DNA of 64,000 nt from Deroplatys truncata (lineage: Eukaryota > Arthropoda > Insecta > Mantodea > Mantidae), in assembly GCA_030765065.1 (NCBI GenBank), contig CM060983.1:44762067-44826066 (forward strand), written 5' to 3'. Positions 1,472-44,600 of the stretch are shown piece after piece. The position numbers and the translations under genes were made by a program. The notes below the pieces were generated by a model. The model was not told the origin of the DNA. It did not search any database and saw nothing but the letters and a program-made list of their open reading frames with translations. Position 1 is the first letter of the stretch; the number at the start of each line of letters is the position of its first letter.

Positions 1472-1562
1472 TCAGGCTTCTGCCTCACCACCCTTCAGCC
1501 GTAACCGAGCAAAGTCTTCAAAAATAATGTCGTCATCTGGTTCTGGAGGTGCCGCATCTTCC
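1472..1562 (-). CDS. krz: Beta-arrestin exon 11, C-terminus and stop
   Basis: This 91-bp last coding exon is preceded by acceptor tatgtttcag. It encodes [20 protein letters not shown] and RLKGGEAEA, then TGA at 1474-1472. [16 protein letters not shown] matches the AP-2 beta-adaptin binding motif of beta-arrestins. Its first Arg corresponds to R393 of beta-arrestin 1, which both completes the polar core and contacts AP-2. The tail after the motif is short (GGEAEA), as in other invertebrate beta-arrestins. Confidence 0.95.
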
Positions 1563-7500: not shown

Positions 7501-10500
7501 CAGAGTCAAGTAAATTTCTGTACTTGGATTTTGCGAAATGTCAATGATGAATAATTGACCCACGCTTAATATTCTTCTCTGATGAAGCATGGTTCCATTA
7601 ACATGGTTATGTTCCCTCGTAAAACAATAGATACTGAAGCACACAAAAACCCGATTTTACACACGAGATGCCATTTCATGATGCAAAGATTGGTGTGCGA
7701 TGGGGAGTAAATGCACACAGAATAATAGGGCCTACACTTTCTGAGCAAATAATAAGTGCAGAGGGATACAGGAATGATTTACAGGTTTTTTTTTTTTTTA
7801 CTACATATAGTAAGTAGGGGAAGTATTGTATTCCACCCAAAAATTCAATACCGAGATTTCACTGGAAATACATGTTTTGAGACCCCCTGAATCCAAAAAA
7901 AAGCATTTTTGGAAACATGTCCGTGTGTGTGTCTATGCGTGTCTGTCTGTGTGTCTGTCTGTGAACAGCATAACTCAGAAACGAACAGTTGGATAAACAC
8001 CAAACTTGGTATTTAGGTTCAGTATCTTCCAGAGATGCGACATGAAGGTTTTCAAGAAAATCCCTCCACCCCAGACTACCCTTTACATGGAACATTTTTC
8101 GAAAATTTTAATTTTCTCAAAAATGGCTCTAACGATTTTGATTAAAATATCATATGTTTAAGATATTTTCATGACAAATGAAATGTATATCTCAAATTTT
8201 CTGGGAATGTCTCCAAAAGTGTTCTTCATTGTGAACAACTTTTGCAGAACTGGTAAACCATAAGAGATAGACAAAATTTGACTACACAAAAAATGTAGAT
8301 CGCGTTAAAATACACAATTTATGTCGTACACATTTTTTTTGTAGAGTGAACCATTTTCGAGATATTGCTTGTTAGTCCCTTAAATTTTCCAATACTTATA
8401 CTTTTTCTCAAATTCGTTATTCATTTTTTTTATGTCCTGGACATGCAAAGAGATTGGAATGCGCCACATAGCAACCAACGCTTAAAAGATTTGACTATCG
8501 CTTATAACCTACCATATTCCCCTTGCATCTACAAGAAAATTAGCAATAAGATTAACATCTCGATATCTCGATTAACATGAAGCATATGGAGAATAAACGT
8601 TTGTAAAAATAGTTTGTACAAGAGTAAAGAAAGTCATGTGAGTGTAGCACATCAGATTTTTTTATGTCCTGGACATACAAAGAGAATGGAATGCGCCACA
8701 TAGCAACCAGCTCTTAAAAGATTTGACTATCGCTTAAAGCCTACCATATTCCCCAAAGAGGACAATATTTCCAGCATCTCTTAAGATAAACTGTGTGCTC
8801 GTAACTGTAATATATGAGAATGTGAGGCATAACTGTTTTGGCAGGAGCCCAAGCTGCGCGGCTGGTACATGAGCCGCCATTTGATGGCCGCAGTATGGAA
8901 GAAAAACACTGCTATTAGTAGAGGTGTTTCTAAACTTATTGAATTCTATATGCATAAATAGCCTTTCATTTTTAACTAACTGAATATGAACATATGATTG
9001 TTTTTCTTCTCAAACTTTCACATATTACCTAAAATTTTCTGTTCCAAAATGTATCTGTTTACAGAATGACAAACATTTAAAGATCTTAAAAACAAGTATA
9101 TTATACTTACCCTCCCAAACCTCCTAACCCACTAAGACAAAGCTTCACCTTCACTTTGTACTGGACTATTATTCCTAGATTCTCCTTCTGAGATGGATCT
9201 GCAACTCTGTAACAGTCATGTGTTAGTACATAATTGGTGGAGCAGATCTTCACTGTTGTGTTTTAGAAAATGAGAAAAATCAAACTTTAATTTTTAACTT
9301 TTCAATAGAGATATCTCAAATTACAAAAAATATCTGATAATCTATATTTTGCTTAGTTAACTACAATGTTAAGATTTTATTCCTTACTCAAACGAGAATA
9401 CTGCTTGATATACAGGATGTATATGAATTTATGCAGTAACTACCCTAATTATATTTTAAGAACAAATAAGCAGATAAAAATATTAAAGGTGTAACAACTG
9501 TTATGTTATGGCCACAAAATGTTAATCAATTAGAAGCTGTGAATGCCATTGAGCTCTAACAACAGGCACTTCTTGGATGCCTGAATGTTTATACCCAGAA
9601 CTGAATTATATGTAGGTTAACTTTTTACTTCTATAATACATCTGTAATTGAAATAATATTCACCCTTTAAATCAATGATACCAGATACCATTCTGAGTAA
9701 ATTCTTTTAATAACAGTTTCATAATTATATGTAATGTTATATTAATAAAATCATATGCAGCAATTGTCTCTGTCTTGTTGTCTTGAATTAGATACACCAT
9801 AATAACCATGGAGTAAGAGATGTTAAGCACAGCATAAACAACCTGAAAGACTGTGCATGCTTGTTTATGTGATGACCTAACTCAAGGTAACAATCTGCAG
9901 ATAACTTTCCACAAGAACAACTTAGATCCATCTACTATTTCAACCTGAAAGCTTGTGATTTTATTACTGAACATTACATTCAAAGATGGATGATTAATAG
10001 AACTTATATATAATTGCATCTAGTATCAATGGTTTAAAAGACAAACCCATTTTAATTACATTCTGTATAAGAAATGCTACACCTAGCCCTAAACTACAAT
10101 CACCAAATAAACTGCCTGTACTAGGATCAGCAGATAAACACGTTTAAATTATCTAACAGTTTGCACATTTATCTGAAAGTTGATTTAAAAATGCATACAG
10201 TGATTTCCTCATATTCACAATCTGGATGAATTATCCTCTAGATTTGCTAATTGAAAGTTTGAGACATCTATAACTAGCAACCTGGCAGACAGAGATTAAA
10301 GAAACACAAAGATAGCTGTATGTTGTATTGGATTTGCAACCTATAAGCTCTAACAAAAAGGTATTTTTATGACTGTATGTGCTGGTTTTGTAGAAAGTAT
10401 ATGCACAACATTTGTGGACTATTATTAATAGGCATGTGCAGGGTATACAATTTAAATCAATTGTTGTGGAAGCCAATGCAGCAGGTTCTTCACTTTGAAG

Positions 10501-19500: not shown

Positions 19501-22500
19501 GGGAGTTCATTTTAGCAGCGTTTAATGCCTGTTCTTACTGCATATAGCACCACAGGCACTGGACACTGATGATACACAAAATGGTATGTGGGAAAGGAAA
19601 TTTTGGAAGGAAACAATTCAGGCCTAAATTTAGGCTACCTCCATAACATTTGCCAGTTAGGAGGACTGAGGAAACCCTAGAAAAAACCTCAGTCAGGAAA
19701 TGCAGTCCTGGCAGGATTTTAAACTCAAGACTCCCATTCACAAGTTCATGCCTTAACGACCTTGACTACCGTGTCAGTCTGTGCAAGGGCGTAATTTACC
19801 AGCATGTAGTTCCCACTCACACTAAAAAAGTTGTCTACACTGTGGAAGCATGTTGGAAAGAAACAACCACACTTCACAATGGGTGGCGACTTCATCATGA
19901 CAATGCATTGCATACCAAGCCATGTCATTTTTGCATAAATTCAACCTGTGTACCACATCCACCTTATAGCTCTAATCTTGCTCTCTGTGATTTTTTTTTA
20001 TTTCCATTACTTAATGCAAAGCTCTGGGGCACTCAATATCAGAACTCTGAAACAGTGCTTGCTCAAGAAATTTGAGGCAATTGCTTAACGATCTGACAAA
20101 GAAGACCTACATGAGGACTGACAGAAATCTATAAGAGGTGTGTTGAAGTAGAAAAGGACTATTTTGAAAAGGATCATGTCAACATTTAGATACAGTAATA
20201 AAAATCTGTGAAAAAAAAAAAAAATCAATCTTTTTCTTGACCAGCCCTTGTACAGTACGGTGATTGTAAACATTTTAACCCTAGATCAGTTTTATTTTTC
20301 CAGTAAATGCATGAACTTCCTACAAGCCAACTTGAATGGATAATATGACTGCCATTAGCTTGACTTGGAAAACAATTTTAAGTGGTTTAGGGAGCAACAG
20401 AACTACCTCAGGGGATAGCTCAAATAAATTTGACCACCTTACATATATTTCTAAGACCAAGAATCTCTTAAAACTATTTATTCATCTCTATTCATTATTG
20501 TCTCATAATATAAAAATGTGTCGCCAATATGGATGTTTTATTCACCAAGTAACAGTAACTTTCGCAAACAGCTTACGATTTCTGGCCACCCTTTTCCTTT
20601 TGTTTTTAAGACATGACATTCACAGGCAGGCTGAAGTCGAGAGGAAAACTTACAATGTGCTGGATGCGAGGTTAGTGTCCTCGTGTTTCAACTGTCCATC
20701 TAGCGCTAACCCCCACTTATCCTTGTTATTGGCAAGAAGGGGTGTCAAAGTAAACACCTTGCTGAGGGTGAACCCTGGTCCAATGGGGCACCCTTCCCTG
20801 TTGCACCACCACCACCACCACCGCAAACACACAGAACACACACACATCAGAACAATTCTACTGTACTGGGGCCACACCATCGTCCCATTCAGCTGGCGAA
20901 CGTTTTCATTAATTACATATCCACATGGAAGTGTGCTACAGGCTTAGGGATTAGTAAAAAAAAAAAACTATTCAACTATTTACAAAATGCAGGTAAAGCC
21001 ATCTTGGCCAACTTGTAAAAAGAAGCCATTATTCTGGGTATTTCTTGCTATTTTAATTAGATTTCACTTTGCTTTTAACAGTTTGGTGGCTTCTACACTG
21101 CATGCAATAAAACAAAACTTTCTCACAGTGGTCAGTTTCACCGACTTAATACCAGTCATTCAAAGCTTTTACTCTAACATGCAAGTTGCTATACAATTTT
21201 GATACAAAATGCAACAAGGTTAGAAAAATAAATTCAAAACATTTAGAGCAACTTTATATTTAAATATTGTAAAATGTTTGGACAACATGTGCTGGCAGTT
21301 TCAAATACTGTTTCTTGCTGAAGTGCACCTAAAAGGTTAAACTTCTCTGCAAATTGGACACTGAACTGTTATCTGTTGAACATTCAATTAGCATTTCAAT
21401 ATGGTTCATTGTCATGAGTTAGAATTAATAAAATTACCTTTTTCTGTTCAAAAACTGTCTGTTAACAACAATTCTTCTTTAAGGCACTGAAATTTGCCCC
21501 CACACTACCAAAAAATAAGAAAGAGAAAGAGAGAGCCAAACTTAACAGCATTTTTCACTATCCAAAATGCTTTACAAGCCACAGATTTTAATTTAAATGC
21601 TTGAAATCTTCAGGAGCCTCAGGCTTTGGCTTTTAAGTCCTACAAAGAAAAGGGTAAACCGTAAAAGAAGAAATCTTTTTCAGATATTAAGGGTTAAAAT
21701 CCATTGTGCAATTATTAAACAATATTTAGTAGCTCATTGTGTAATCAAATAATTTATATATAAAGTATTATATATTCATAAAATTGTTGCCTCGTAGTGC
21801 TGCAGTAATGTGTTGCCGGAGTGCAAGTGGACATAGATCCAATTCCCAACACTACCTTAAGGACTTTTCCTACCTAAGGCTGTGCGGCATGTACCCAGCC
21901 TCATGAGGTCCTGGGGACCAATTGAGGAGCAGCTGTGGTCTTAATACACATCCCATTGACCAGAGAAAGGAAGTTTGCTGACCACAAGCCATCCACATTA
22001 ATGCATTCTGCCCATGACACCATGTGTGGATTGAGACAGAGGATGCAGCAGCTATGCAACAGATCTAGGCCCAATCAGGCTGCTCATATTTGTAAAACTG
22101 AAAAATTCTATAAAGCATATAAATTTTGCTCTACCAACATACTAATTAAAATTAATAAATGCTTGCCCAATGATTTGTAAAGAGTTTTTTAAAGTTTAGA
22201 ATTAAAAAAAATTGACAGATATAATGCGTTGTTTTGTACAAGGAGCATTTTGTATTAATTATATCAAAAGCAATTAATACACATAAAAAAAATTAACTCT
22301 CAAATGCATATGTGATAAAAATTTCATGTTAATCAACAGAAAATTTGGAGTTTCAGATTTTTACAAATACATTGTTAGGAGAAATGGTGTAGGTTACGTT
22401 CTTTAGATAAAAGCGTACCATTATGGTTCATTTCTCTAGTTTATTTTAAATGCATCTTCAGCATGTGTCAGTTCAATGTCCAACTAACAAAAAAACATCA

Positions 22501-25500
22501 AACAATCCTCAGTAAGAATTGCCATTCAAAGAGTGGTGCTTGCTGTTTAAACAATAAATATAAAGAATGTGACAATCAAACAAGCTTATTATTATACTCC
22601 GCTTTTTGCCCAACTCTCTCAACATTTGGTAGGCACTTCTCTTCACTAGCGCTTTGAGATAAAAGCCCTGGTACCTATATGCACAAATATAATGTTGTAC
22701 AATACAAGTAAATTCACTTGGAACTGAAAATATTACAATTCTGTTCCACAAGGATATTGCACACATTTATGCACTGTTAGTCCATGCTTGCAAGTTACAA
22801 GTAAAATGTTGTTTGTTTTGATCCAAAAAAGTATTTAAATTAGCTCCATATTTACAATTTTGTTTTCTCCCAAAGAAAGGAAACTAATATTTCTCATAAT
22901 GTTTGTCATGCTGTTGCCATGTAGGGACACCCCTGTGGTGCTTTCTGTAATCAGATGAATTCATAACCAGTGATTCTGCCGCTAGACTTGCATGGTGACA
23001 AGTGATTAGATAACGCAACAAAAGATGATGCTGTGGGTGTGAATTGCTGACAATTCTGCTCAGGGGCCTTCTCTTTCAAGGTATGACATTATTTTATGTA
23101 TAAATAAACATCAAGTGGGACCAACAGCTTTACTACCCTTCTGCAGGAAGCCTTTCTCCTAGTTACGTTGTTTAAACTATTCTTTTTATTTAATAATTCA
23201 GGAAAGATAACTAGTAGCACAGTAAAGTGATGGGAATGATAATTAGTGGTGTTTATAAAGAGAAAATAAATTTGAAAATGAATGCAGAGAGGTGCAAGGG
23301 CTTCCAGCTGATATTGGAAGCTCAAACATCCAAATATGACTTTGCTGCCAATCTCTTAGTAAGACTTCAAAAATCTCAGTTCAACTACTTGACTTTATAA
23401 CTCTTTAATTTCATGCAGCAAACATATTTACTTTCTTGAGTCTGCTTATTTCAAGATGAATAATTTTATTCTCTTCAGCACGATTTTGGGAGATGTTAGC
23501 AAATTATTTACAATAATGAATCTTTTGAAAATTGCTCCCAGTGCTGCCTGTTGACAGAATTTTGAAATGATATGGTAATGAATCACAAAACATCTGTAGA
23601 GGAAGTACAACATTCCACCCTAGAATATGGTATTGAACTTTCACCAGAAATATACATTTTGAGATCCATTTTAAACCCCCCCCCCCAAAAAAAAGTCGGA
23701 TGAGTACCAAACTTTGTAGATACAATAACTTTCAAGGATGCAACACAAAGATTTTCATGAAATAATGCCCTCCAAAACTACCCCTTTCCTCTTTTATTTT
23801 CTCAAAGATGACTAATGATTGTGATTAAAATTCTGAATTCTGTATTTGTAAATACACGAGATACAACAATTTACTAGAAAAAACATGTAAAGCTCATTAT
23901 ACTGCACCGTTGAGTCAAATTATTCTTTTTAGTGCCTTTAATAATTTTCAAAATATTTCATATTGTAAGTTTACATTTTCCCAAGTATGTGTGATCTAAC
24001 AGAACATTTGAAAGTTTGTGAATCTTCAAGGGCTCCTTAAAATGGATTATGAATAATTATTTTCTCTATTACTCTGATATTAATATCTGAATTTTCTTCC
24101 TATGCAAATATTGTTTAATTTTAAATAATTTCTAAGCAAAAATGTATTATGAATAACGTAACATGGATATCAGAATCATATTTTTTTACCAATACTACAA
24201 TACATTAGGTATATATGTGATTGTTCAATGTGCATTGAAAGTCATGTGAACGTATCACATTGGATTTTAAACTTAAATAGCAATACAAATTGCTGTTTTC
24301 ATTAAATTCAGTTTAAGATCAGGGAAGTGTACATAACCTAATTCAGGATATTAAGTGGCAAGTTAAAGTAAATTATTGTTGATAAATTATGACAACACTA
24401 ATAACATATGATGGTATACCTTATTTTGTGTAAAAGTGCCCATACCTTACAAGCTACAAGTAAACATCCTTGTAAAGTACAACAACATACTTTTGTTTAA
24501 TAGGCCCCAAGACCTTGTGTCACATAAAGGTAAATATTTCAAACTTCACTGTACCATTTCCAAATGTGAAAGCAACTGGAATGAAGAAAGTATAGCAACT
24601 GCAAAATAAATGCTCATGGCTCTTAATTGCATATTGTGTTTTAAGGGATACCATAATGGTTTCCTTCTTATTATTAGCATTATTTTAACATTAATGAATA
24701 CAATTTAACTGCCTAGCGAAATGCTTGTGAATTTTATCATGCTGGGATACGTACAACACAAATCTTTTGGCACACAACGAAAGTGAAAATATATCCAAAG
24801 ACTCAACACTTCCATGTAGTCCTATATTAGGAAGAATTGTGGCTAATATTCTTCTACACTACAGGAGAAATACACTACATCCTTAAGGCCAATGATAACT
24901 TTATTGCTTTCACGACTTCTCTTTCAACACTTCACTGTCCACTTTTGCTACATACTTGCTGCAAGGCTTTACTGTGAAGGCTAAAAGATGTTTCCTCCAG
25001 AGGAACACCCTTAGGGATTTTACCAACAAAGTCCTTGATATTACAATCAAAATGTTTGAAGTAACTGCCCATTACCTGACATTTTCGTGGTTTTAAAAAT
25101 GCATAGCTTGTAGAAGGTTTATGAGCGTAAAATTTAATTTGACAGCAAGTCAAAGATGGAAAGATTAAGCATAGGTTATAGAAACAATAATATGTTTAAG
25201 TTGGTACGCATTTTCATTGCTGTTTAGCCAGTGCTGTGTAAGTAAAAATACTGGTTAGTGAAACAAAATATGAAGTATCTTTCATCAGATTCTTTATTGG
25301 TTTCCCCCAATCTAAATTTGACGTGAAACATCACCAAATATCTTCTTTGCAAGGTTACATTGTTGCAGGAATCACGGATAAAGGTGTAATACACTATTTA
25401 AATGCACAAAAGCGGACATCTGAGATTGCCAAGGCGAGCGTAAACCCTGTACAGTTTGTGTAAAATGTCGTGACACTCCATGTGCACAAGAGAGGAGAAA

Positions 25501-28500
25501 TGAGGAGAGTGGTAGGGGAGCAAGAGGCTAGAAGTGATATCAGAACTCGAAGACAGTCACATACACAAGGCATTGTAAACAACTGTGTAAGCTTACAATA
25601 CCACATTCACAGCAGGTGGGACACTGACCCCCCCCCCCACCATCTTACTATGCAAGTGGGTTGGTCGGTACTATTGCACTTTAATTGAGTTTTTTATTTA
25701 TGGACGCTCTTTAACTACTATGGTTCTTAGCATCCCATTCTATATTGGGTGTGAAAGACCGATAATTTTGCTCAGAGGCCTCTTTATCAGGCTTGAGGTT
25801 CTTTTACGTGCCATAAATCTACAACACAGGACCACCGGCTTTACTTCCCTTCTGAAGGAAGCCATGCTAAGGATTTTTACGCCCGAAAAAATCCATCATC
25901 CTCTGCCGGGTTTGAACCCACGACATTGGGAACTAGAGGCTAGCATGGTACCACTAGTCCATGGAGGACGACTATCTATGCTTCAGGAGTTGGGGACTGT
26001 CATGACATTTTACATAAGCTGTAATAGAATACATTTAGGGAGAAGGTATCATGGCAGAAAAGAAGCATTTCTGCAGAACATGACTTGTCAAAGCAGGACC
26101 TTGAGCCTAGTTAAAAAGTTGAAACTATTTTCATTCATCATGAAGATTTGATACAATTTTTGTATAATTCTATTGAGAATTATTTGTGTTACTAAGATTG
26201 TTATTGTGAATGACACAAACTTCTTGCAGCATGTTGTGTTCCATGCACATGAAACATTTCATTTCCTTTAATTAGTTCTGCAGACTGTGATCTGTTGCAC
26301 GCCTGTCACCTTCCTTGTTTATGATATTTGCTAAGACTATTCACTGAATGAAGCATTTAATAAACAATGTTAATAAAACAAAAAACAAACAAACAAAAAA
26401 ACAATATTGGGAGTTCAGTGCCAGGCAGTCAGACATAAACAAAGATAAGTAGCACTCGCCAGCGTAAACACCAGAAGACTATTGTCAGATAGCCAGAATC
26501 TTCTGGATACCTCTCCTTCTTGAACGTTTTAGAAGTCTGTGGAAATTTCCAACAGCTACATAAGCAAGTGCTCTCGCAAGTCAGTCAGTTGGTGAGCAAG
26601 TTAGAAAGAGCGTTACTGGTGCAATGAAACATAATGTTCTCCATGCGAGTTTGTGATGACTACCATGACATGCAGTGAGTGCTGCTTCCACGAGATATTG
26701 GAGAAGTCTTGTGTTCAACCCCCTGTGGGTAAATATGTGGAAGAAGAGGCTAAGTCATGTGTATTTCATTACATTGCTACGCCACAAAGAAAGTGAAGTG
26801 ATAGTGAGAACTTAAGAGACGTAACAGTGAAAAGTTGAACTAGATTACATTAACGAAGTGACAGTGAGAATATTTGTGAAGTGACAGTTAAAAATGGCAC
26901 AAAATTGCAGTATTTTATAAAATATTATTTAATTGAGTTTATTACATATCAATATTATAATGTAGCACAACCTTCTATGCTCTTTAAGAAAGCTTTCTTC
27001 ATTTCTTTGCCTTATAAATCAGATGAGACAATTTCCAAGCAATTGTGTATCAGGTGTGACAATCTCATTTCAGCAAGATTTCAGTGACCTTGATTGGTTC
27101 AAATTGAAGGTTTTAAATAAACTTTAATGCCTGCTCTTACTATATGTGGCATCACGGGTGATGAACACTGGTGATACATGAAATGAAATGATAGTTGGGA
27201 AAGGAAATGCTACAGGCTTTAGTTTAGGTTAACTCCCCGGCATTTGCCAGTTACGACTGAGAAAAACCTGGAAAAAATCTCAGTCAAGGAGGATAGTGCT
27301 GGTGGGATTCGAACCGCACACTTCCTGTTCACACTTCTGTGCCTTAACGACCACAGCTACCTGTGTCAGTGGTTCAAATTAACCCCTTATAACCTGGTGC
27401 ATCACATATGTTACAAAGGTATTTTTTATGTTTTAGGATTTGTAATGGGCCTTTTTTTTTTCTTTCTTTTCGAATTTCACATTATATTAACCTTAACAAT
27501 AAAATTAGGCTATTTATAGCTGATTAATATTTTTGCAATAAAATTGTAGTGTTTTCTTTTTTAATAATAACATTGAGCAAAATCTATGCAACTGCAGTCA
27601 AATGTAACTCCATGTCATTACACCGATTATTTTACTTGGGCCCTCCCCTTCCTTTACCACAGGCACATTTGACTGCAATTGTTGGGACTCGAACTTGCAA
27701 GTTTGGCTTTGAATGGATGGCCAGTCCACTTCATATTGTACTAACGATCACGGCTACTCAAGTCACTTCAGTTATCGTGCCGGTGAAAGGGATATAAAAG
27801 CCAGTTTTGGAATTAGAGGAAGAGTGGCATATGTAGCAAAATAATTCTGGCAATAAGACGTTAACATGGGGTGTGAATTGTATTGGTCAATGTTGAGTGT
27901 CTGGCCCATGAAGTAAATAGTCCAATTTAATCTCCCAAAAATACTAAAAATACTACCCAAGAAGGGAAGTGACTTGGATTTGAACTTAAGCAGTGTTTTT
28001 AAAGGTGTCATCAGATCTTGAACACTGACTTTATACACTGCATAACCCTAGACATTGCCTTTGCAATGAAGCAATCATCAATCACTGTCCAAACATTGTT
28101 ACTGCAACTGTCCCAAAACGGGCACGTGTTTTTACTTGGGATGATATGGCACAGAAGCTACCAGTACAAATTAGTGGCAAATGTGCATATACTGAGTAAA
28201 CCTACAACTAAGCTCTGCTATCGTACACCGAGTTTAACTGTGAAAAGATCAATCAGTAAAACACTCCACAATCACAAGTCTTTGGCAGTGTAGTTTCTGC
28301 GGACATTGACACAAGGGTAAGTAGTTCTATCTCTTTCTTACTTTTAATATTCCTAACTCAGCAGCTATTCCCATTGAGACATACAGAGTGGAAGGTGACC
28401 TATGATCATCCTTGAATGGGATGACTCTTTGTAATGAATAGAGCAAAAACTCTTAGTGCAGTTTTGCGGGTGAAAAAGTGAAAACTGCTTAATATTAAGT

Positions 28501-31500
28501 CTATTTTAAATGAACATTTCGCGAAACTTAAATGCTTTTTCAAATATTTCTTAGAGGAGATTAAAAGATAAATATTTTTTGAATGTTTAAATACATTTTT
28601 AATTAAAACAATTCACACTCTTGCTATTATTATAAGCTTTTGAAATTTGTCTCAGGTGAGTCCACATTATTAGCCACAAGACTACACAACATGACAACAA
28701 TGTAAGATCAAAAGAAATGCCTTCCAGCTGCTGTTAATTGTGCTTATGGCTTGTTTTTGAAACAGCGAATTATCGGTTACAAAATGGCTCATTTTACTAA
28801 AGCTGAGTATCTTCAAATGCTACTCATTTACAGTGAAACACATCATGATGGGGCAAGAATTTATGAAAAAAGATTTCCAAATAAGACAAGTACCACATCA
28901 TAGAAATCCTTCACTTGGTGGAAAAAAAATCCTGGGAGAAGCAGCCATGTTATAGCTTGCATTAGACTGTTCTGAGAACATTAAAGGCAGAATTGCTATG
29001 CCCTTACCACACTCAGCACATCCAGTATCTCTCTGAAGCAGATTATGCACCAAGGGTAGCATTTTCCAAATGGTTTCTTCAACAAGGACAGGACTTTCCC
29101 CTTAAAATTCTTGCAATGGATGAAGCAACATTTACCAGAAATGGAGTAACTATGATACACACACCTGGGCTTACGAAAATCCACACACAATAAAACAAGA
29201 TTGCTTTCAACACATATTTTCTGTAAATGTTTGGGCAGGAATCATAGGAAACACATTAATCGGTCTGTGGACTCTTCCTCAGTGCCACCTTCTCCAGTTT
29301 CTTCAAGAAACGTTACCAGTTCTGCTTGAGGGTATACCCCTGGCAGTATGAAATGATATGTGGCTGTTACATGATAGTGTACCTCCGCACATATGTAGAG
29401 CCATGTGTGGCCATCTATATAACACTATATAGAACACGGATCGCTCGGAATGGACCAATAAGATGGTCACCAAGGTTGTCAAATCTAAAGCCAATTGGTT
29501 TTTTTTCTTTGGGGCAATATGAAAACTCACATATATGTTACAGAAGTTCCTTATGTGGAAACATTGCAAGAAAAAATACTTAGAGCAGCGGAAGAAATAA
29601 AAAAACAAGCCAGATGTACTTCGTAGAGTGCAGCAGAATTGGAGAAAGCGTTGTGGAACATGTGTGTTGGCTAGGGGTATTCAGTTTGAACAATTTCTCT
29701 ATGCATTAAAAAGGAGTTCTCATGGGTTTTCTGTTCTTGTCTTGCTCTAATTATTCACAGAGTTATTCACAATTATTCTCAAAGAAAGGAAGCACAATCT
29801 TGTAACTTGGGTTTCTCAAGCTTTTATTTACCTTTATAAAAGTGTTCCTGTTAATAATTTGTGTAATATTATAAAAGTGTACTCAGTTCCATATTCTGTA
29901 TGAATTTTAGGTTATGTTACAATCATGTGTAGTTTTCTGTTTATTAGTATACTGGAAATATTTATTTGTTTATTGCCATAGCAGCAGAAGCTGAAGAACT
30001 AAAGTTAACCTGTTGAATGTAAGGTAAACCTGCTGTGTTGCTGTGAATTTACTGTGTTGCAATATAGTGCAAAATAAAATGTTAAGTTTTCTCAAAAACA
30101 GAAAGTTTTATGGAGAAACACTCAAAACAACATGCTCTTTCATAGTTTAAAAGAATGATCATAGGTCACCTTCCACCCTGTATATTCCTCTGTAATTAAT
30201 ATACCTTACAGCTGCATCTGGCAGATCGGAAATGGCAACAATTTTTGAGAGCTGGCGTACATATCTAATTTAGTGTGAAACATAACTTTTGTTTTCTATT
30301 TTGTGATATTAAACAAATCTTGGAACATTATTGTCAGAACTTATGAGGCATAGCTGATAGACCTACTAAACTTTAGCAACAGTTTCTGAACTGTTTCATG
30401 TGTACACATGGATGAAAGTGATGCACAAAGAATTATCCATCCGACATGGTAAGATAAAACATTTTACTAAAAGGAAAACTTACATTTTTCAATTTTTATG
30501 ATGTTGTTGTGACTCAATGTTGCTTATATCTGCTAACATAAACAATTTTCATTTTCACTCGGTAGGTTTTAGTGTGCAGTTTTTATGTGAAAATTTGTTT
30601 ATGCGATACATTTTACTAGCATCCAAACCAAACTTCTTTAAGAAAGCTTTCCAAAATTGTACTGGAAGCTGATACACACTGCTAGTAACCATTAAAGAAA
30701 AAGTTTTGAATGCTACAAGGGACATACTATATTGGTTTACACTTTATTTTTTCCCCACACAATTACACAATTTACAACCTTATTGAAAGATTCATCTTTT
30801 CAATATACTCCTGAACTGTATGCCCTTGCACCATCTGTAGTCTTCAGATCCCCTTTAACTACTTCTTCAGAATGTATTGTAACTATTATCAAACAACAAC
30901 CCTGAGAAGGTCAAGTTGTGGTGTTTGGCAGCATCCAAAGCCCCTATATCAGTGATGTCATTGTTACTCTCCTCCAGGAATTGGTCTCCTACTCTGTTGA
31001 TGTAAGAATTTTTTTCTATGCTTTCCACCCACATATGCATGCTATTCTATGATGTATAATGCTGCCCAAACACTGCCACTGATTGCCTGTGAAACTCTGG
31101 AGAGAGTTCACACCTCTTTCCAGAGAGAACCTACCTTTGATCACTCTCTATCATGTCTGCTCATATTGCCCTTGAGGGGATTTATTTAGATTACAGCCTT
31201 TTATTGTGTTCTTTCACTAAACAACACCACAGTACTAGCCAACATGAATATTGTTGATAATATGGTAGAATATTACAAATAGTAGGGAAAAAATAAAGTG
31301 TAAATCAATACAGTATGCACCTTGTATTTAATTTTATTTAAAAACAAATAAATAAAGCCGCTTTCTTGCACGAATTTGAAAAGTCATGCAAAAGTTAAAA
31401 TTTGCTGAGTAACACAAAACTCTATGCTTCTGCTGTGCGCCATGTGTGGTGTTACATGCAGTGTAGCTTTCATCAACGTTTATATGATACCTGTGAATTA

Positions 31501-34500
31501 ACAATGCACAGAGCAGTTAACTTTTCTAATCACCTGATAAGATCTTTACTGCTTCACAACACTCATTGAGATATTTGTAAGCCGTAAAGTAAAAGTATGT
31601 AGCAAAAGTCTCAGTTTCTTGCAGCAAAAGCAACTTAACATAAACAAAAATTGTGAGAAACGGTTCAGTGCAATATTTCAGTTACGTGAATATAAAAATA
31701 ATCATGTGCCTTAAGGTGAGAAAGGAAAGACCCACACACAAGGGCAGCCACATTCTTCCTAAGCTCACTCAGGCACCAGCTGTAGGGGGATGGTGTGTCA
31801 TGTGGCTGTGAGGGGGGGGACTCACATTGTCGATGATGCAAGGTTGGTATCCTCGTGCTTGAGCTGCCCGTCTAGTGCCAGGCCACGCTTATCCTTGTTA
31901 TTGGCTAAGAGTGGTCGAACAGTATAAACTTTGGAGAGGGTGAATCCGGGCCCTACAGGGCAGCCTGCTCTGGAACCCACACAATATGTTCAGCGATACC
32001 TGTAAACACTTATGGAACTAACAGGCGAGGTTTCTCTTCTTCTTGGTGGCACCAACTATCTTACTACCATTACCAGTCGTTACTAAGTACACACATTCAA
32101 GCAATTTTTTGTTTTATTGCACAGCTGATTGTGATACAACAGCAAACCATGAGTTAACAGTAAATCGTCATTATTTACGAGGTGGGTCAGGATCACCAAC
32201 CTTTTATTTATTTATTTATTTTTTATTGAAGAGTGAATCTTTTCTTGAAAAATATTATTTATAACAAATACAGTACTCATTTAACATGCATCAATTAAAT
32301 GCTTTTACTGAAGTAATCAATCAATTGAAACATTACAGTATAAACTGCATTGAATTATGTTGTTCAGTTCAGCCCTTTACCATTATGGATGGAAACATTA
32401 AAGTCTCCTAGATCTAACAATACTACTAGTTTCCTATACAATATTTGCAACCTTGCTAAAGTGTTTTCTTTTAGGATTACAAATGGCCTTGGGATTTGCA
32501 GGGACATTAATACCCACTATAAATCTTCAAGCCGCTTAGATTTAATTATGCTGTTGAGTTCATGCAATATCGTTGACTCCATCTTTACATGTTTTAATTT
32601 CTTGTTTACTTTCTCTACTATGTATAGTAAGTAGGGGAAGTATTGTATTCCAACCCAAAAATTTGATACCGAGATTTCACCGGAAATACATGTTTTGAGA
32701 CCCCCTGAATCCAAAAAAATCATTTTCGGAAACATGTCCGTGTGTGTGTATGTATGTGTGTGTCTGTGTGTCAGAAACGAGTAGTCGGATAAACACCAAA
32801 CTTGGTATTTAGATTCAGTATCTTCCAGAGACACGACACGAAGGTTTTCAAGAAAATCCCCCCACCCCAGATTACCCTTTACATGGAACATTTTTTGAAA
32901 ATTTTAATTTTCTCAAAAATGGCTCTAACGATTTTGATTAAAATATCATATGTTTAAGATATTTTCATGACAAATGAAATGCATATCTGGAATTTTCTGG
33001 GAATGCCTCCAAAAGTATTCTTCATTGTGAACGACTTTTGCATAACTGGTAAACCATAAGAGATAGATAAACTTTCACTACACAAAAAATGTAGATCACA
33101 TTAAAATACACAATTTATGTCATATACATTTTTTGTTGAGTGAACCATTCTCGAGATACTGCTTGTTATTCCCTTAAATTTTCCAATACTTATACTTTTT
33201 CTCAACTTCGTTATTCATTTTTACTTTCTCTACTACGTATAGTAAGTAGGGGAAGTATTGCATTCCACCCAAAAATTCGATACCGAGATTTCACCGGAAA
33301 TACATGTTTTGAGACCTCCTGAATCCAAAAAAAGCATTTTTGGAAACATGTCCGTGTGTGTGTCTGTGTGTGTGTCTGTGTGTGTGTGTGTCTGTGTGTG
33401 TGTGTCTGTGAACAGCATAACTCAAAAACGAACAGTCGGAGACGCACCAAACTTGGTATTTAGGTTCAGTATCTTCCAGAGATGCGACACGAAGGTTTTC
33501 AAGAAAATCCCCCCACCCCAGACTACCCTTTACATGGAAGATTTTTCGAAAATTTTAATTTTCTCAAAAATGGCTCTAACGATTTTGATGAAAATATCAT
33601 ATGTTTAAGATAATGTCATGAGAAATGAAATGTATATCTCCAATTTTCTGGGAATGTCTCCAAAAGTATTCTTCATTGTGAACGACTTTTGCATAACTGG
33701 TAAACCATAAGAGATAAACAAAATTTTACTACACAAAAAATGTAGATCGCGTTAAAATACACAACTTATGTCATATACATTTCTTTTGTTGAGTGAACCG
33801 TTTTCGAGATATTGCTTGTTATTTCCTTAAATTTTCCAATACTTATACTTTTTCTCAAATACGTTATTCATTTTTTTATGTCCTGACATGCAAAGAGAAT
33901 GGAATGCGCCACATAGCAACCAGCGTTAAAATATTTGACTATCGCTTAAAAGCTACCATATTCCGCTTGCATCTACAAGAAAATTACCAATAAGATTGAC
34001 ATCTCGATATCTCGATTAACATGAAGCATATGGAGAATAGGTGTTTGTAAAAATAGATTGTACAAGAGTAGAGAAAGTCATGTGAGTGTAACACATCAGA
34101 TTTTTTTTATGTTCTGGACATGCAAAGAGAATGGAATACTTCACATAGCAACCAGCTCTTAAAATATTTGACTATTGCTTGAAGTCTAGCAATTCCCCTT
34201 GCATCTACAAGAAAATTAGCAATAAGATTAACATCTCGATATCTCGATTAACATGAAGCATATGCAGAATACGCATTTGTAAAAATAGTTTGTACAAGGG
34301 TAGAGAAAGTCATATGAGTGTAACACATCAGATTTTTGTTCTTAGAGTTACAGTTCTCAAAATTGTTATTATATTTTACACTATAAACAGGCAATGATGA
34401 CAGATGTGGTCAACTGAGGCAGAATTTTAATCAGTAATGCATATGTATTGTTGTAAACATTATGTTACTGTGATAATTTATTGTTCTTCTACACAAGCTG

Positions 34501-37500: not shown

Positions 37501-38657
37501 GCTATTCAGGTATATCAAAATATTTAAAAAAATCCGAGAGGTTTCATTGGGACCTGTGTTGGGTATCGAAATACATTTAAAATATTATAGCTTTCCAAAC
37601 CAAGTTAAACAATGATATTTCCATTTCGATACTCACTCGCTCTCCACTTCTGCTACTGTGCATTTGTATTGTGCTGTTGAGAACAGGCAAATGTCTGCAA
37701 ACTGCCGGACTGGAAAATACAAATCTCAAATTAACAAGAAAAGCTTTATTCATAAAAATACCCTCTTCAATGAGGATTGAAGATATGGAAAGACAGGAAT
37801 TGGTAGTTTTAATTCAAAAAGATCATTATATGTATATACAGAGATTAAAAGGGAATGGGAAAGAGAAAACTATGTTGATGTTTGTAATAAAATAGCAAGA
37901 GAGGGCTTTGCATGGGCTAGGTCAGGGGTGGTGAGGTTAAAAGGCATAGGAGAAGGAGAAAATGAAGGCAAATGCCCATTATGTAATAGCAAATTTAATA
38001 ATTATTGGCATTTAATGTTAGAATGTGAAGGAACAATGAATATGAGGAAAAAATTGCAAAGAAACAATTGGTCTAGATTACCAAACGATTATAGGTAAAA
38101 GGATGTTAAGAGTTAAATCCAAGGAAAGTTTAATTGAAATAGGAAAATATTTAGGGTAGTGAGAAATAAATGACTGAAAACAATTAGAAATAGCGAATAG
38201 AAAAGAAAATATAGATTGTTGAATCATAAAATCAAATAGGAACCAATAACTCGACAACCATAGTGTTGGATGTTTGCAGGCCCTTAGTAATGCAGCAACT
38301 TAGTGAAACAGAAAATGATATGTAAAGGGTAATGTGTAGAGATAAAATTATGTATTATAGAACTTATATGAGAATTAATTTATGTAACTAACAAAGTGAA
38401 ATAAAATATCTATCTATAAAAATATTACTTTTTGACATTAGATAGGCTCTGTTTGAATCTGCTTAAAGAACAGCTCTGCAATTCAATTTATTCTTTTCTT
38501 TTTAATATGTTCTGATTTTTAATATCATTTTATAATAGTTTTGGGCACTAAAACTGAACAAGCTATCAGTTTTACTCAATCATGTGAATTTTCTTGGAAC
38601 TACAGAAATCAGTTGTTGGCTTTTACCTATATTTTTATTACACCTAATAATGTAATT

Positions 38658-38691
<34 letters not shown>

Positions 38692-41600
38692 TTGGTTATT
38701 AGGTAAGTATCATTCAAAAGAAAGAATGGAGAAACAAAGGAATAACATGGTACATTCAAGTTTGTGACAACAAAGGAAGAATTTTTTTTTTCCTCATTTC
38801 ATTTAGAAATTTTCCTGCAATCCTCTCTAAGGACACAGTAGAATAAGGAGACCATATACTTGCCATAGAATTGTTCTATCCTGTATTTACAGAGAGCCAA
38901 CAGAATTTATATCTACATAGAGTGATCAGGGTCCAGTTTAATAAAAAAAAAAAAAAAAGTCCTTCTTATGCATTTGTTAGGGCTCCAGACAGATTTTTAG
39001 GAGTTCAGTAAATGTCCTTTTAAAGTCACCTTATTATGTGGATTTTCTCATGGTTTTTGAGATTACAAATAGTTTTCCTAAGTCATACACAAGATGATAG
39101 CACTATTGCTTCCTAGAGGTTCTCAACAATTAATGAAGTATTGCATTGTTTCTGTATTTCCTAGTACTTGTGGTATGGTTAATTTGTGCTGAACATGCAC
39201 ACGTATGATTACTGGAGACCAGATGTGCTAAATAACAACTTATGTAATATTGTGACTGTCATATAAAACCTAAGCTGTGTTTCTCACAACCTTGCCCAGA
39301 AGACATGTATTCTTCTGCGCTGCATTTCCTTCCCCTTTCCCCTGGCTGGCTATATATCTTTGAATTGTGACAGACAAGCCATGTGCTGTGCAAGAATAGG
39401 TGATAAAAGCGATATAAACACATTGCTATTGTAGATGCACATGCTTTCATCATTCGAGAGGCAGATTTAAACAAAAGGATCCTCCCAGTTATTTGTTCAT
39501 AAGAATTTACATGATTTCCGAATGCATTAAGTCTGTTACATAAATATATTTAATTCATACGGTTATGAAAATGTAAATTTGACAGTTATCTTTGAATATA
39601 TTAATGTAAATCTCATCTTGCATAATAACCTATTCCATGACAGAGCCAACGAGAGCTGGCTAGTGCACTTGACCAATAAGAGATACAGGGCAAAGTTATA
39701 TGGACCAGACCTTAAATGTAAATAAAAATTTAGTGGTAAACTTGCCACAAAAATCACCTTCTTTTAAGAGATGAAGTAATCAACTTGAAGTGGAATGTAA
39801 AGTAAGCGACATCGGAAGTGTGAACGCAGGAGCAAATGTGAGTTAATTTCATAGTTGCAAACAATTAAAACCCAGCTTTGACAACACCAAAGAACTGTTT
39901 CTAAATGCAAAACCACCAAAATTATCAAGGTTAGCTATATACGAGGCTCACTGAAAACTTTGAGAATGGGCAACAATGAGTTGTGGTATGTCAAAGCAGG
40001 TGTTCATAGCTTTCAAGTTCAGATAGCAAGCCTGTGTGCCCTCCAACAATGTGCAGCATCAGCACTTCTGTATATGTGCATGCAGGTGTTGCTATTCTAT
40101 ATGCTAGGAGAGATCTAAGTGAGAGCATTTCTGTGCTATGCTTTTCAATGACTTTGGAGTTGGTTTAGGGGAGAGAGAATGCCTTGAAAGGCTGCATTGG
40201 GCTTTGGGGATCTTTGTCCTTCAAAATCTATGATTTATTGATGGTTTGCATAGTTAAGAAGAGGAAGAGATTCCCTCCAGATGAAGACTGTGCAGGACAG
40301 CCAGCTACAGCAACAACAAATGAAAGTGTGATGAAAGCAGAGTGCATCTTGCGAGAAGATCATCGTTGCACATATTATCAGATTCAAGAAGCCCTGAATA
40401 TTGGCTCCAGAGCAGCCACCATTCATAAAGAGAAACTTCATACCAAGAAGCTCTGAAGTTGTTGGAACACCCACACTTCATAATGAGTAGAAATTGACAC
40501 GTGTGCAATGGTGCCAGGAAATGATAGGAAAATTTGATGGATGAAGATCCAAAAACATAACATCGTAACACACGATGTAAGCTGGATATACCATTATGAT
40601 CCAAAAACTAAGCGACAGTCATCGATCCAGATCTTCCCAGAAGAGGATCATCCAATAAAAAGTGAGACGTGCAAGAAGTGCTGGCAAGAAGATATGTTCG
40701 TTCTTCTCAGCTAGTGGCTACATTGTGACAATTTCATTGAGGGACAAAACGGTCACAAAATGTCTGCCACAAGTCTTTGATTAACTGAGAACAAAGCACC
40801 CTAAGATTGGTCTGCATGTTGCACCATGACAAAGACTCTGCCCCACAGAAATAACACAATTTCTGTAAGAGTCAAACATTTGTGCCATCCTCCCTACAGT
40901 CCAGATCTGGCCCCATGTGACTTTTTTCCATTTCTCCAGTAACTGCTTACAAAAATATATTTGCACTCTCTCCAAAGAAGAATGACATTTAGGATTTAAA
41001 AAGAGGTTTGAAAGGATGAAACATTGTACAGAATGCAATGGAGAATATCTTGAAAATATGAAATGATCAGATCTAAATTTTTAAAAACTTTTTGGGTTCA
41101 TTCTCAAAACTTTCAGAGTGACCCTCATAAAAGGAAAATGTGTTATTAAGGTTTTCCCACACATCAGTCTTATTTGATTGCATTGTGTTTAAATTATTAC
41201 CAAAAAGAACCATAAACTCAATTACAAAGTTCATAACTAAGTAAATCATAAATCTTAAGCTTACCTGAGACTTTTATTTTTTTTACTGTTCTATTTGAAT
41301 TGTTTGCTATGTGTACATTGACTGCTATGTTTTCTCCATGGTGATACAGCTGTAAAAAAAAAAAAAAGCAAGGGTGAGAAAAAAAATGTGGCAACATGCA
41401 CAAGATAGCTGCAAATATTTTATTTCAATAGCAATGATAACAACTGGTATGAATGTTTAAACTGAGATTGTTCTTGTTTAAGTTTAATGAGTAATTTCAG
41501 TTCTCTCACCTCTTTATCAAGAGATGCTTCTAGATGGAGTTTGTTTGGGCTCATTACAAACTCTTTACTCACTTCCACTGATGGTTGTTCCCCCTGTTTG

Positions 41601-44600
41601 CTAGGGGCATACATTATCTTTCGTATTGCCAATCTGACTGAGTTTCTGCAATGCAAATAAAACAACAAGTCATTACTTGGCCATTACTATATGTAATATA
41701 TGCAGGGTGTGCAAACATTTCAGAGTGAATCTAATATACACAGAGAAGAAAATGCTGTCACAGTATGGTGAACTGCTACATTTGAAAAATGAAGAAATAG
41801 GAAAGTACAACTGACAGCGAGGCATACAAAATTTTAAGGATGGACTTGTCAGTCATGCTATACAGTGTGTTTAAAAAATAAAGAGCATAAATTCAGGTAT
41901 GCATTCCCCATATATAGACAGTAAAAAAGTCCATTACAACATGCGTCTGGAAATGTTTAGTTTTTGAGTTATGACCTTCAAAACAGTGATATTCACTGGA
42001 ACCTTTTTCTTCCTGCAGGTCTTGACAAAAGATATTAATGGACACTCTGACAGTTCATTCCGAGGTGAAGGGTACACTGAGTGTTGTGTTTGGCGTTCGA
42101 CTGAGCGACATGTACTCAAATCAGGAGAAGGCAGAAATGCACTTCATGTACGATAAGGTGGACAGCAATGCTGGGCTGGTTTGGGGAGGGGACAACCAAG
42201 ATCTACAACTTCGGATGTAGAAGAAGAGATTCTAGATTCTGTACACACGATTCCTCCTATCAGTATACGAAGGTGCAAGAGCAGCAGTTGTATCCTTATC
42301 ATTTGCAACATGTACAGGCCCTGTCACCAGCAGATTACCCTGTGGTTCTTGCAGCAGTGCACTACAAATCCCAACTTTTCTACCTTAGTGTTATTTACAG
42401 ATGGGGCACAGTTCACACTAGATGGCATTACAAATTTCCACAATCAGCATATATGGGCATCGTTTACTTGCACCCCAGGTACTTGTAAACAGACAGGGCA
42501 GGCGTACACAAACTTCCTGGAAAACACCATACCTCATATGTATGGTGTTTTCCACTGAGCATTTGTCAACAAGCTCACTTCCTGCATGAGGTGCTTCTGC
42601 ACACTTCAGTCGTACCGCTCGCCGGTACTTGGATTGAAGGTTTCCTGTTTGATGGATAGTTAAGAGGTGGCCCAATTGCTTGGCCACCATACTCACTTGT
42701 CGATTTCTAATTGTTGGGACATTAAAAGCCTTGGTGCATTCATCTCCGGTGTCTAACATGGAATCCCTTCAGAATCGAATTGTGGCAGGTTGTGAGGAAA
42801 TACACAATAATCCTGAAATTTGTGGTCGTGTTTGCATGACCATGAGACGTTGATGTGAACTCTGTATTCAAACAGGAGGTGGATACTTTGAATATCTTCT
42901 GTAAAGAAAACTACCTGTGGTAAGAAGTATGTTCCGGTGAATATCACTGTTTTGAAGGCCATAACTGAGAAATTGAAATTGAGTTTTTATTTATGGACAC
43001 TCTTTAACTACTATGGCCCTTAGCATCCCATTCTATATTGGGCGTGAAAGACCGGAAATTTTGCTCAGAGGCCTCTTTATCAGGCTTAAGGTTCTTTTAC
43101 GTGCGTAAATTTACGACATGGGACCACCGGCTTTACCTCCCTTCCGAAGGAAGCCATGCTAAGGATTTTATGCCCGAAAAAATCCATTGTCCTCCACTGG
43201 GTTTGAACCCGCGACCTCGGGAACTAGAGGCTAGCATGGTAACCACTACACCATGGAGGGCGACCCATAACTGAGAAACCAAGTATTTCCGGACACTTTT
43301 TTTTTGGGGGGTCTATATATGGGGAATGCATACCTGAAATTATGCCCTCTATTTTTTAAACATCCTGTATATAGAAGCATGGCTATTTACCCTGTAGTGT
43401 ACAGAATCAAATGGTTAATGCCACAGAATGAATCAGTGACTCTGATTCTCCTCATTCTCCCTTCGGAAACTCTAATGGAGCCTTTTTGGCACATGCTTTT
43501 GTGGTGTTTTCATTTTTCATATTTTTTTCTTTTCTGCACTAGTGTTTCCTAGAGATGATATGTGTGCTAATATAATCATATTTTCAATTTAGTGTATACG
43601 AAAATGCAGTTTTAACAGATTTCATATATTTTTGATTAAGTGTTTCTCAAGTATAATTTGTATACAAATGATAAGCATAAATTTCATTCTGGTTTTTATT
43701 TCAACTCTAAAATATCTTCTCTTTCATATCCAATTCTTTAATTCTAAATATTTCACTTTCTCAATGATGAGTGGTGTATACGACTGCACCACAACATTAG
43801 TGTACCAATCATGCCACTGCGTTTATAGGTTAAAATGCCAGTGACAACCATAATTTCCAATTAATTTTCATTTTTATTTTCTTTCTGTCTTTGTTTTAAC
43901 ATGATCTTTAGATTAGGCAGGTCAGCAGAAGATAAAACAGGAGAAATTAACTTGAGGACCTAAAGTGCCAAGGATGTTCATGATAAATATCCTACACCCA
44001 GAAGAAAACCCCTGAACAAAATGCTCAGCCAGGCAGTTTGACCCAACTGTGGTTCATAATTTGAATAGGTGTCATTTTAAAATTGCCTTTTTAAGGTGAG
44101 GAGTGCAACCTTGTAACTTTGTTCTAAAGAGATCTACATTTTTTGTGTAGTACTTTTTTTAATCTCTTATGGTTTACCAGTTATACAAAATTATACAAAT
44201 AAAGAGGGGACCACAGGCTATTCCCAGCAGCTTCAAGATATATATTTTATTTATCATTTAAATATCTTAAATAGGTATATGGTATTTTAATCAAAATTGT
44301 TAGAGCAACTTTTGAGAAAATCAAACACTTTGATAAAACTTCCATATGAAGTGTAGTTTGGGGTGGGGGATTTTCTTGAGAATCCATATATTGCACTTTC
44401 AAAACAAGTATTTCCATTGAAATCTTGACATTAATGGAATACAAGATTTATATCTTACAAAACAATTTTCTAGTATCACTGAAAGGCTGTAAAATTCCTA
44501 CAAATGGAACTTTATTTATATAAGATGAATATAACCTAAAACCCTTCACTCCAATAAGGTTAAAAAAAACAAACAAACTTACCTACCATAGGTAGGTGGC

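Follow-up and report, generated by a model that had tools for sequence, protein, structure and literature searches.

Two alternative lariat-loop exons, probably mostly mutually exclusive, in a beta-arrestin gene of Deroplatys truncata

Beta-arrestins shut off and reroute hormone and neurotransmitter receptors. The window analyzed here, a 64-kb stretch of Deroplatys truncata DNA, has a beta-arrestin gene on its minus strand with two homologous 144-nt exons, 8A and 8B. Our main reading, to which we give a probability of roughly 85%, is a splice switch of ancient origin that chooses between these exons in a mostly mutually exclusive way and so alters how the arrestin engages its receptors. The lariat-loop exon of a non-visual beta-arrestin gene would have been duplicated in tandem in ancient times, and splicing would normally pick one copy per mRNA, producing an R isoform (8A, with Arg285, the putative ancestral residue) or a W isoform (8B, with Trp285). 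The two isoforms would share the remaining chain, including the polar-core aspartates, and their most telling difference would be a receptor-touching residue of the central crest. The W isoform may have another receptor range, a weaker dependence on receptor phosphorylation, or both.

The coding exons were located by tblastn with human ARRB1 and by their splice boundaries. They lie on the minus strand in the order e2 (56692..56752; 20 protein letters not shown), e3 (47137..47327), e4 (45285..45463), e5 (41510..41645), e6 (41265..41349), and e7 (37637..37709), which ends in GA| and is the common upstream partner of 8A and 8B. The R-type lariat-loop exon 8A (31826..31969) and the W-type lariat-loop exon 8B (20654..20797) follow, and then e9 (9111..9206), their common downstream partner, e10 (5359..5523), and the last coding exon with the stop codon, e11 (1472..1562). 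Reading and alignment to human ARRB1 revealed NLIQLD in e10 and a motif in e11 (16 protein letters not shown), which we take to be clathrin-box-like and AP2-binding-like, respectively. A clathrin box and an AP2-binding motif in the C tail distinguish non-visual beta-arrestins from visual arrestins. The spliced R isoform scored 102.3 bits against Arrestin_N (PF00339) and 76.6 bits against Arrestin_C (PF02752), both above the cut-offs. With both domains, the polar-core aspartates, and the C-tail motifs present, the gene is classed from its sequence as a non-visual beta-arrestin, and it shares Arrestin_N, Arrestin_C, Asp290, Asp297, and C-terminal clathrin- and AP2-type motifs with vertebrate arrestin-2 and arrestin-3 and presumably with Drosophila Kurtz. 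The single-exon isoforms of Zootermopsis are 91-92% identical to this beta-arrestin.

We compared 8A and 8B with each other. An earlier sequence-only reading had placed two 144-bp exons of identical phase at these coordinates, each joining exon 7 to exon 9, and this arrangement was confirmed. Its estimate of about 103 matching nucleotides agreed with our count of 103 in 144, and its 41 of 48 residues is the same count as our 42 of 49 codons (split codons included) without the shared first Glu. The differences fell on codon positions 1, 2, and 3 in the numbers 10, 5, and 26. Synonymous differences occupied 26 of about 36 sites and nonsynonymous differences 15 of about 111 (Fisher p = 8e-11), corresponding to a dN of 0.149, a dS of 2.68, and a dN/dS of 0.055 (NG86). 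By these measures, the duplication is old and purifying selection has kept both exons, as had been proposed. Several features of mutually exclusive tandem exons were found: the copies are adjacent, homologous, and equal in length and phase, have their own splice sites, are under purifying selection, and are conserved across species. Searching with the arrestin exon peptides by tblastn detected no third copy in the window. When the 8A peptide was searched against the whole 4.29-Gb genome and the best five candidates were scored, four matched, namely 8A, 8B, and two other arrestin loci, and no third copy of the 8A/8B kind was found among them. One of these loci (L011) has a single such exon with matching boundaries, and the other (L012) is open onward on both sides.

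Database proteins of relatives bear on how the two exons are used. Among 224 fetched relatives, 40 have both copies in a row, 99 have a single R-type copy, and 84 have a single W-type copy; these counts use the looser residue pattern, which classes all 224, as a stricter pattern left three unclassified (two R-type Schistocerca proteins and one W-type protein). Of 42 species entries picked by hand, 27 have R-only as well as W-only proteins, and both are present in Zootermopsis, Schistocerca piceifrons, and Gryllus bimaculatus. Between Zootermopsis X5 and X4, the differences are confined to the N terminus and the lariat-loop exon. At the level of these database proteins, separate R-only and W-only isoforms appear to exist, and public gene models already hold them. 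We infer that this animal makes both isoforms and that the choice between them is mostly exclusive and regulated.

An alternative is that both exons are regularly used together, producing a third protein with two tandem lariat segments, alone or beside the single forms. The gene structure would permit this. Because 144 is a multiple of three, double inclusion or skipping leaves the frame intact, and with both exons included the frame stays open for 455 codons including the stop; the frame therefore enforces no exclusivity. The introns compared are of the U2 type, and 11 kb separate 8A from 8B; exclusion is therefore not accounted for by steric hindrance or by U2/U12 incompatibility. The region contains seven pairs of inverted repeats. 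The 40 double proteins include gene models of many species and a UniRef entry from Lygus hesperus (P0024), which we take to be transcriptome-derived. However, all 40 derive from annotated sources (ncbi, uniref, nr), where gene predictors may chain compatible exons, and both single forms occur in the 27 species entries mentioned above. Among 23 transcript-like records known only from short contigs of 1.6-5.6 kb (sources lgn, ena, and jgi), 14 were R, 9 were W, and none was double, although doubles were top-ranked in the relative searches. Clustering at 90% identity may conceal double transcripts. P0052 and P0076, both W and with the lgn source in addition to annotated sources, were excluded from this set. 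Four of the 14 R records (P0121, P0162, P0168, and P0186) resemble arthropods with only R listed and thus say little about exclusion; without them, the count of doubles is 0 of 19. A second 48-residue segment within the C-domain should also disturb the fold. AlphaFold models of Zootermopsis X2 (double-exon, 55-row alignment) and X5 (W-only, 46 rows) had mean pLDDT values of 47.8 and 45.1, too poor for use. We regard regular double inclusion as unlikely. As nothing in the frame, the spacing, or the type of intron prevents it, we describe the pair as alternative exons that are mostly exclusive. The mutually exclusive splicing predicted by the sequence-only reading is thereby softened: exclusivity is likely, but the frame is kept when both exons are used and 40 of the 224 relatives are double.

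The splice sites bear on a second alternative, in which this species has stopped splicing one of the two exons, leaving it as a relic. Both exons have AG acceptors and GT donors (gtgagt for 8A and gtaagt for 8B). The donors had been called strong, which holds on the intron side only; the exon sides read AAT| in 8A and ATT| in 8B, and the log-odds scores were 3.9 and 2.0, respectively, of a maximum of 8.9, that of 8B being the second-lowest among ten donors. Both acceptors are weak. The tract of 8B, 0.38 pyrimidine, was the poorest of 11 compared, tied with exon 10, and 8A (0.50) came next. A TG-repeat and a GGT-repeat tract precede the 8B acceptor, the GGT-repeat standing in place of the pyrimidine tract. 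These weaknesses would suit a relic, but both exons are open and carry the low dN/dS given above. In addition, the 8A peptide is 100% identical to copy 1 of Zootermopsis and the 8B peptide to copy 2 of Molorchus, each over 46 columns, and the W-only and R-only proteins of Zootermopsis, S. piceifrons, and G. bimaculatus are further evidence against disuse. We regard a relic as very unlikely. A recent duplication or assembly artefact in one genome, conceivable given the long repeat-rich introns and with no support found, was ruled out by the near-saturated synonymous sites, the unrelated flanks (27-37% ungapped identity of the flanking introns over 60-300 nt), and the same pair in proteins from many other assemblies.

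The exon pair is not confined to this mantis. Double-copy proteins span many insect orders and also shrimp, crab, woodlouse, and ostracods, with the R-type copy first in 40 of 40 and W (35), C (4), or F (1) in the second. Chelicerates, myriapods, and Daphnia had R only among the matches listed; no Drosophila protein was among the best 120 matches listed in each relative search, and no relative was found in the viral contigs scanned. Since database proteins across insects and several crustaceans have the same pair, it is better read as an old splicing switch than as a quirk of one genome, and judged from these proteins the pair is widespread and not special to D. truncata. The earlier view of single-copy exons as the usual state in arrestins is thus unsupported for this group. 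The proposal to look among hemimetabolous insects was too narrow, as the pair is widespread and already in automatic gene models. No published description of the insect pair appeared among the matches listed in open-licence full-text searches. In the tree, W-type copies formed one side of a branch (93/91). Without column 285 they were no longer a single clade (3 changes), which weakens the case for a single origin of the W-type copies, although one clade was not rejected (p-AU 0.196).

The marker change between the exons is Arg285 in 8A to Trp285 in 8B; the R-W residue contrast used the stricter pattern without the three proteins it left unclassified and was sorted by residue 285 itself. The other six differences are at 258, 262, 272, 274, 275, and 305 (arrestin-2 numbers). 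The gate loop is given as 291-307 of arrestin-1 (PMC12733242), which we converted to 285-301 of arrestin-2. In this numbering, Arg285Trp is its first residue and the other six differences lie outside, with 274 and 275 falling within the lariat loop as defined in PMC10447241 (274-300). The suggestion that the isoforms differ only in the activation-gating loop therefore stands for the exon and fails for the loop (six of seven differences outside). Since 8A and 8B have the same polar-core aspartates at 290 and 297, the evidence favours an altered receptor interface over an altered gate. R285 is reported among the residues always contacting the compared GPCRs, via ICL2 or ICL1 (PMC10866553), and R285A almost abolished beta-arrestin-1 coupling to the glucagon receptor (PMC10447241). 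At the equivalent site of arrestin-1, Arg291Ala and Arg291Glu increased binding to unphosphorylated rhodopsin more than two-fold, and Arg291Gln shifted selectivity the same way, reducing the preference for phosphorylated receptor (PMC12733242). The functional argument is based on these vertebrate mutations to Ala, Glu, and Gln, none to Trp.

As a tentative extension, which we hold with less than even confidence, one gene may have toggled Arg285 and Trp285 since the base of Pancrustacea, with a phosphorylation-dependent R form and a less dependent or differently receptor-selective W form taking the place of the two vertebrate beta-arrestin genes. Drosophila is described as expressing a single beta-arrestin orthologue, Kurtz (PMC9624432). 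If one insect gene yields both forms, expression and knock-down studies of "the" insect beta-arrestin may have confounded or overlooked two proteins, whose difference would include a residue found repeatedly in contact with GPCRs. The pair would amount to a natural experiment at this position, where mutations in vertebrate arrestins alter both receptor binding and phosphorylation selectivity.

Tandem duplicated or mutually exclusive exons are known, for example, in Ca-alpha1T and Cacophony (PMC9741552), arthropod Mhc (PMC2257972), and Dscam. As in these reported cases, 8A and 8B are homologous exons that lie next to each other, match in length and phase, and give proteins that are alike except for one region; they are also old and conserved, and only a few residues change at a functional site. 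In contrast to those cases, double inclusion of 8A and 8B is in frame and they lie 11 kb apart, so that neither frame nor spacing enforces exclusivity. Neither PMC9741552 nor PMC3303723 uses the word "arrestin" in its main text, and no arrestin is among their named examples. The beta-arrestin-1 and -2 structures with alignments examined have Arg285, whereas this gene also offers Trp285 through its second exon. Arrestin-4 (cone arrestin) naturally differs at this position too, with Gln at the Arg291 equivalent; there, the change is in a separate gene, whereas here Trp would be reached by exon choice within one gene.

A non-visual beta-arrestin gene lies on the minus strand, with most of its coding part within the window. 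Its 11 coding exons, counting both 8A and 8B, run from 56752 down to the stop codon at 1472 and are bounded by AG acceptors and GT donors. The spliced product matched both Pfam Arrestin_N and Arrestin_C, and its closest single-exon relatives among the matches listed were Zootermopsis beta-arrestin-1 isoforms (91–92% identity). An upstream coding stretch, RVFKKSSPNGK, was located beyond the window (positions 7014–7046 of the outside sequence L014, approximately window position 81,014–81,046). It is apparently preceded by its own acceptor, and thus the start codon should be further upstream.

We compared the two lariat-loop exons, 8A (31826–31969, minus strand, 144 nt) and 8B (20654–20797, minus strand, 144 nt). 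Their phase is identical at both ends, 103 of 144 nucleotides are identical and 42 of 49 codons agree, and the differences at codon positions 1, 2 and 3 number 10, 5 and 26 (NG86: dN 0.149, dS 2.68, ratio 0.055). The sequence flanking 8A is unlike that flanking 8B. No third copy was found within the window, and a genome-wide search (4.29 Gb, 818 contigs) with the 8A peptide returned four matches: 8A, 8B and two other arrestin loci. In one of these (L011, C2), the lariat segment forms a single exon, bounded as 8A and 8B are, and reads RRG; in the other (L012, C1), it reads RHG and the open reading runs on at both sides with no intron there. These comparisons and copy searches confirmed the sequence-only reading of two homologous, in-phase 144-nt exons. 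We regard 8A and 8B as a genuine, conserved pair of alternative exons through which beta-arrestin exchanges a residue that contacts the receptor; splicing most likely uses only one of them at a time.

Relatives were collected as 224 distinct proteins pooled from three protein searches (best 120 of 3682, 4131 and 3016 matches), and copies were classified by the residue preceding GLALDG (or ALALDG), which is residue 285. One R copy was present in 99 proteins, one W copy in 84, one F copy in 1 and two copies in 40. The doubles comprised 35 RW, 4 RC and 1 RF, with the R copy first in 40/40. By listing names, they come from termite, cockroach (Blattella fragment P0176), true bugs, lanternfly, sharpshooter, whitefly, lice, beetles, sawfly, ants, bees and wasps, sand fly, fungus gnat, mosquitoes, mayfly and dragonfly, and among crustaceans from shrimp, crab, woodlouse and ostracods. 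Only R was found among the listed proteins of Nymphon, Limulus, Tachypleus, Strigamia, Chamberlinius and Daphnia, and the sole listed Hyalella isoform is R; further isoforms may exist in all of these. The Lepidoptera noticed among the listed proteins (Eumeta, Colias and Plutella) had W only. Cys or Phe replaces Trp285 of the second-type copy in P0032, P0041 and P0127 (lice), P0182 (Eufriesea), P0184 (Cyprideis) and P0197 (Belonocnema).

In bovine arrestin-2 numbering (residue n of the 47-residue query is 257 + n), 8A and 8B differ at 258, 262, 272, 274, 275, 285 and 305, and share both polar-core aspartates (290 and 297). At 287–303, a common 17-residue sequence is shared by 63 of the 65 distinct R-type peptides and by 44 of the 54 distinct non-R ones; the peptides were sorted by residue 285 itself, with three pattern-missed proteins left out. 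Independently of this sorting, copy 1 is R in 40/40 doubles and copy 2 in 0/40. The largely shared 287–303 segment and the steady contrast at 285 mark Arg285 versus Trp285 as the signature of the two copies at the sequence level. Departures from the consensus within 287–301 occurred in 8/54 distinct non-R and 1/65 R peptides (one more on each side when pattern-missed proteins are counted). H295D (KDEDTNL or similar) was seen in W-type second copies of P0025 (Penaeus), P0028 (Armadillidium), P0090 (Scylla) and some bees and wasps. The R-type copy of P0035 (Schistocerca cancellata) and P0042 (S. piceifrons isoform X2) reads KHEGTNLASS, in which polar-core Asp297 is replaced by Gly, whereas the W-type protein P0018 keeps Asp; the R isoform may therefore be loosened in those locusts.

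Several published findings bear on residue 285. In a study of V2R–beta-arrestin-1, R285 is described among the residues always contacting the compared GPCRs, via ICL2 or ICL1, although for V2R itself the resolution permitted just a guess on this contact (PMC10866553). It pairs with Trp425 of the glucagon receptor through a pi-cation interaction, and an alanine change of either residue nearly abolishes binding (PMC10447241). At the same site in arrestin-1, Arg291Ala and Arg291Glu raised binding to phosphorylated rhodopsin by 20–30% and more than doubled binding to unphosphorylated rhodopsin, and Arg291Gln, found in some cone arrestins, also lowered selectivity (PMC12733242). R285 adopts several conformations depending on the ligand, and its importance for ERK has been hypothesised (PMC7519161). 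By analogy with these effects, the natural Arg/Trp swap should alter the choice of receptors, or of their phosphorylation states, that the arrestin accepts. An Arg285Trp effect could go in either direction: the cited results vary between receptors, and Trp is absent from the R285/Arg291 changes cited.

Mutually exclusive splicing had been predicted for the pair. R-only and W-only proteins were separate in 27 of 42 species entries chosen by hand for having several rows; the remaining 15 include the R-only Daphnia and horseshoe crabs, as well as species in which one of the single forms occurs, mostly alongside a double. In Zootermopsis, the N terminus and the lariat-loop exon are the sole differences between isoforms X5 and X4. 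Single use of each exon fits this annotation, in which many entries are automatic gene models, not reads. As a transcript proxy, we used 23 records with sources exclusively lgn, ena or jgi and contigs of 1.6–5.6 kb, which we infer to be assembled transcripts because the beta-arrestin gene spans tens of kb. They comprised 14 R, 9 W and 0 doubles, even though doubles occupied the top ranks in two of the three protein searches. Among the R records, P0121, P0162, P0168 and P0186 carry FYLTPL/FYLQPL-type sequence, as in R-only arthropods, and so are weak evidence on exclusion; with these four removed, doubles numbered 0/19. The 40 doubles among the 224 proteins argue against strict exclusion; they include Lygus P0024, which we take to be transcriptome-based, and clustering at 90% identity may also conceal members.

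No feature that would force exclusion (frame, spacing or intron type) was found at 8A/8B. At 144 nt each, the frame is kept with both exons (455 codons with stop) or neither (359 codons with stop), the spacing is 11,028 nt, and the introns are U2-type. Both acceptors are weak, with a tract pyrimidine content of 50% (8A) and 38% (8B), which would fit, as a guess, regulation of exon choice by trans-acting factors such as UG-binding proteins. At the 8B acceptor, TG-rich sequence is followed by a GGT repeat directly ahead of gcaacag, and these stand in for a pyrimidine tract (20798–20850, minus strand). This GGT-type repeat could differ in length between individuals and influence splicing.

The ancestral state at 285 is, judging from the sequences compared, R, because R is present in the listed non-pancrustacean arthropods as well as in those structures of beta-arrestin-1 and -2 that had printed alignments. 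A tree was built from 67 exon peptides selected from the 224 proteins (30 pairs, the window's included, and 7 single-copy rows; 46–47 columns). A branch supported at 93/91 had all 30 second copies to one side. Once column 285 was masked, three changes were required for the second copies, and one clade was not rejected (p-AU 0.196). From so few columns, these results are suggestive. We favour one origin before the split of the listed insect and crustacean lineages, since copy order is constant and exon junctions match across doubles. Under a single origin, Daphnia would have lost the W exon or would have W in unlisted isoforms.

Tandem duplicated exon substitution is a known kind of device, and R and W isoforms are already present in public gene models. 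We found no description of such an exon pair in an arrestin among the matches listed by full-text searches of open-licence papers on arrestin and splicing (the first 15–30 of 34 to 2,883 papers per search) or on residue 285; one may exist elsewhere.

The introns also contain other elements. One intron carries, antisense to the gene, a 957-aa open frame of a non-LTR retrotransposon (51198–54071, plus strand) that encodes an endonuclease and a reverse transcriptase domain. It is preceded by a 378-aa frame (50038–51174, plus strand) that matched no Pfam family and looks like the ORF1 of this retrotransposon. Pieces of apparently one interspersed element, with translated stretches of, for example, 13 and 15 residues, recur in several introns (approximately 32517–32891, 16904–17194, 54820–55080 and others).
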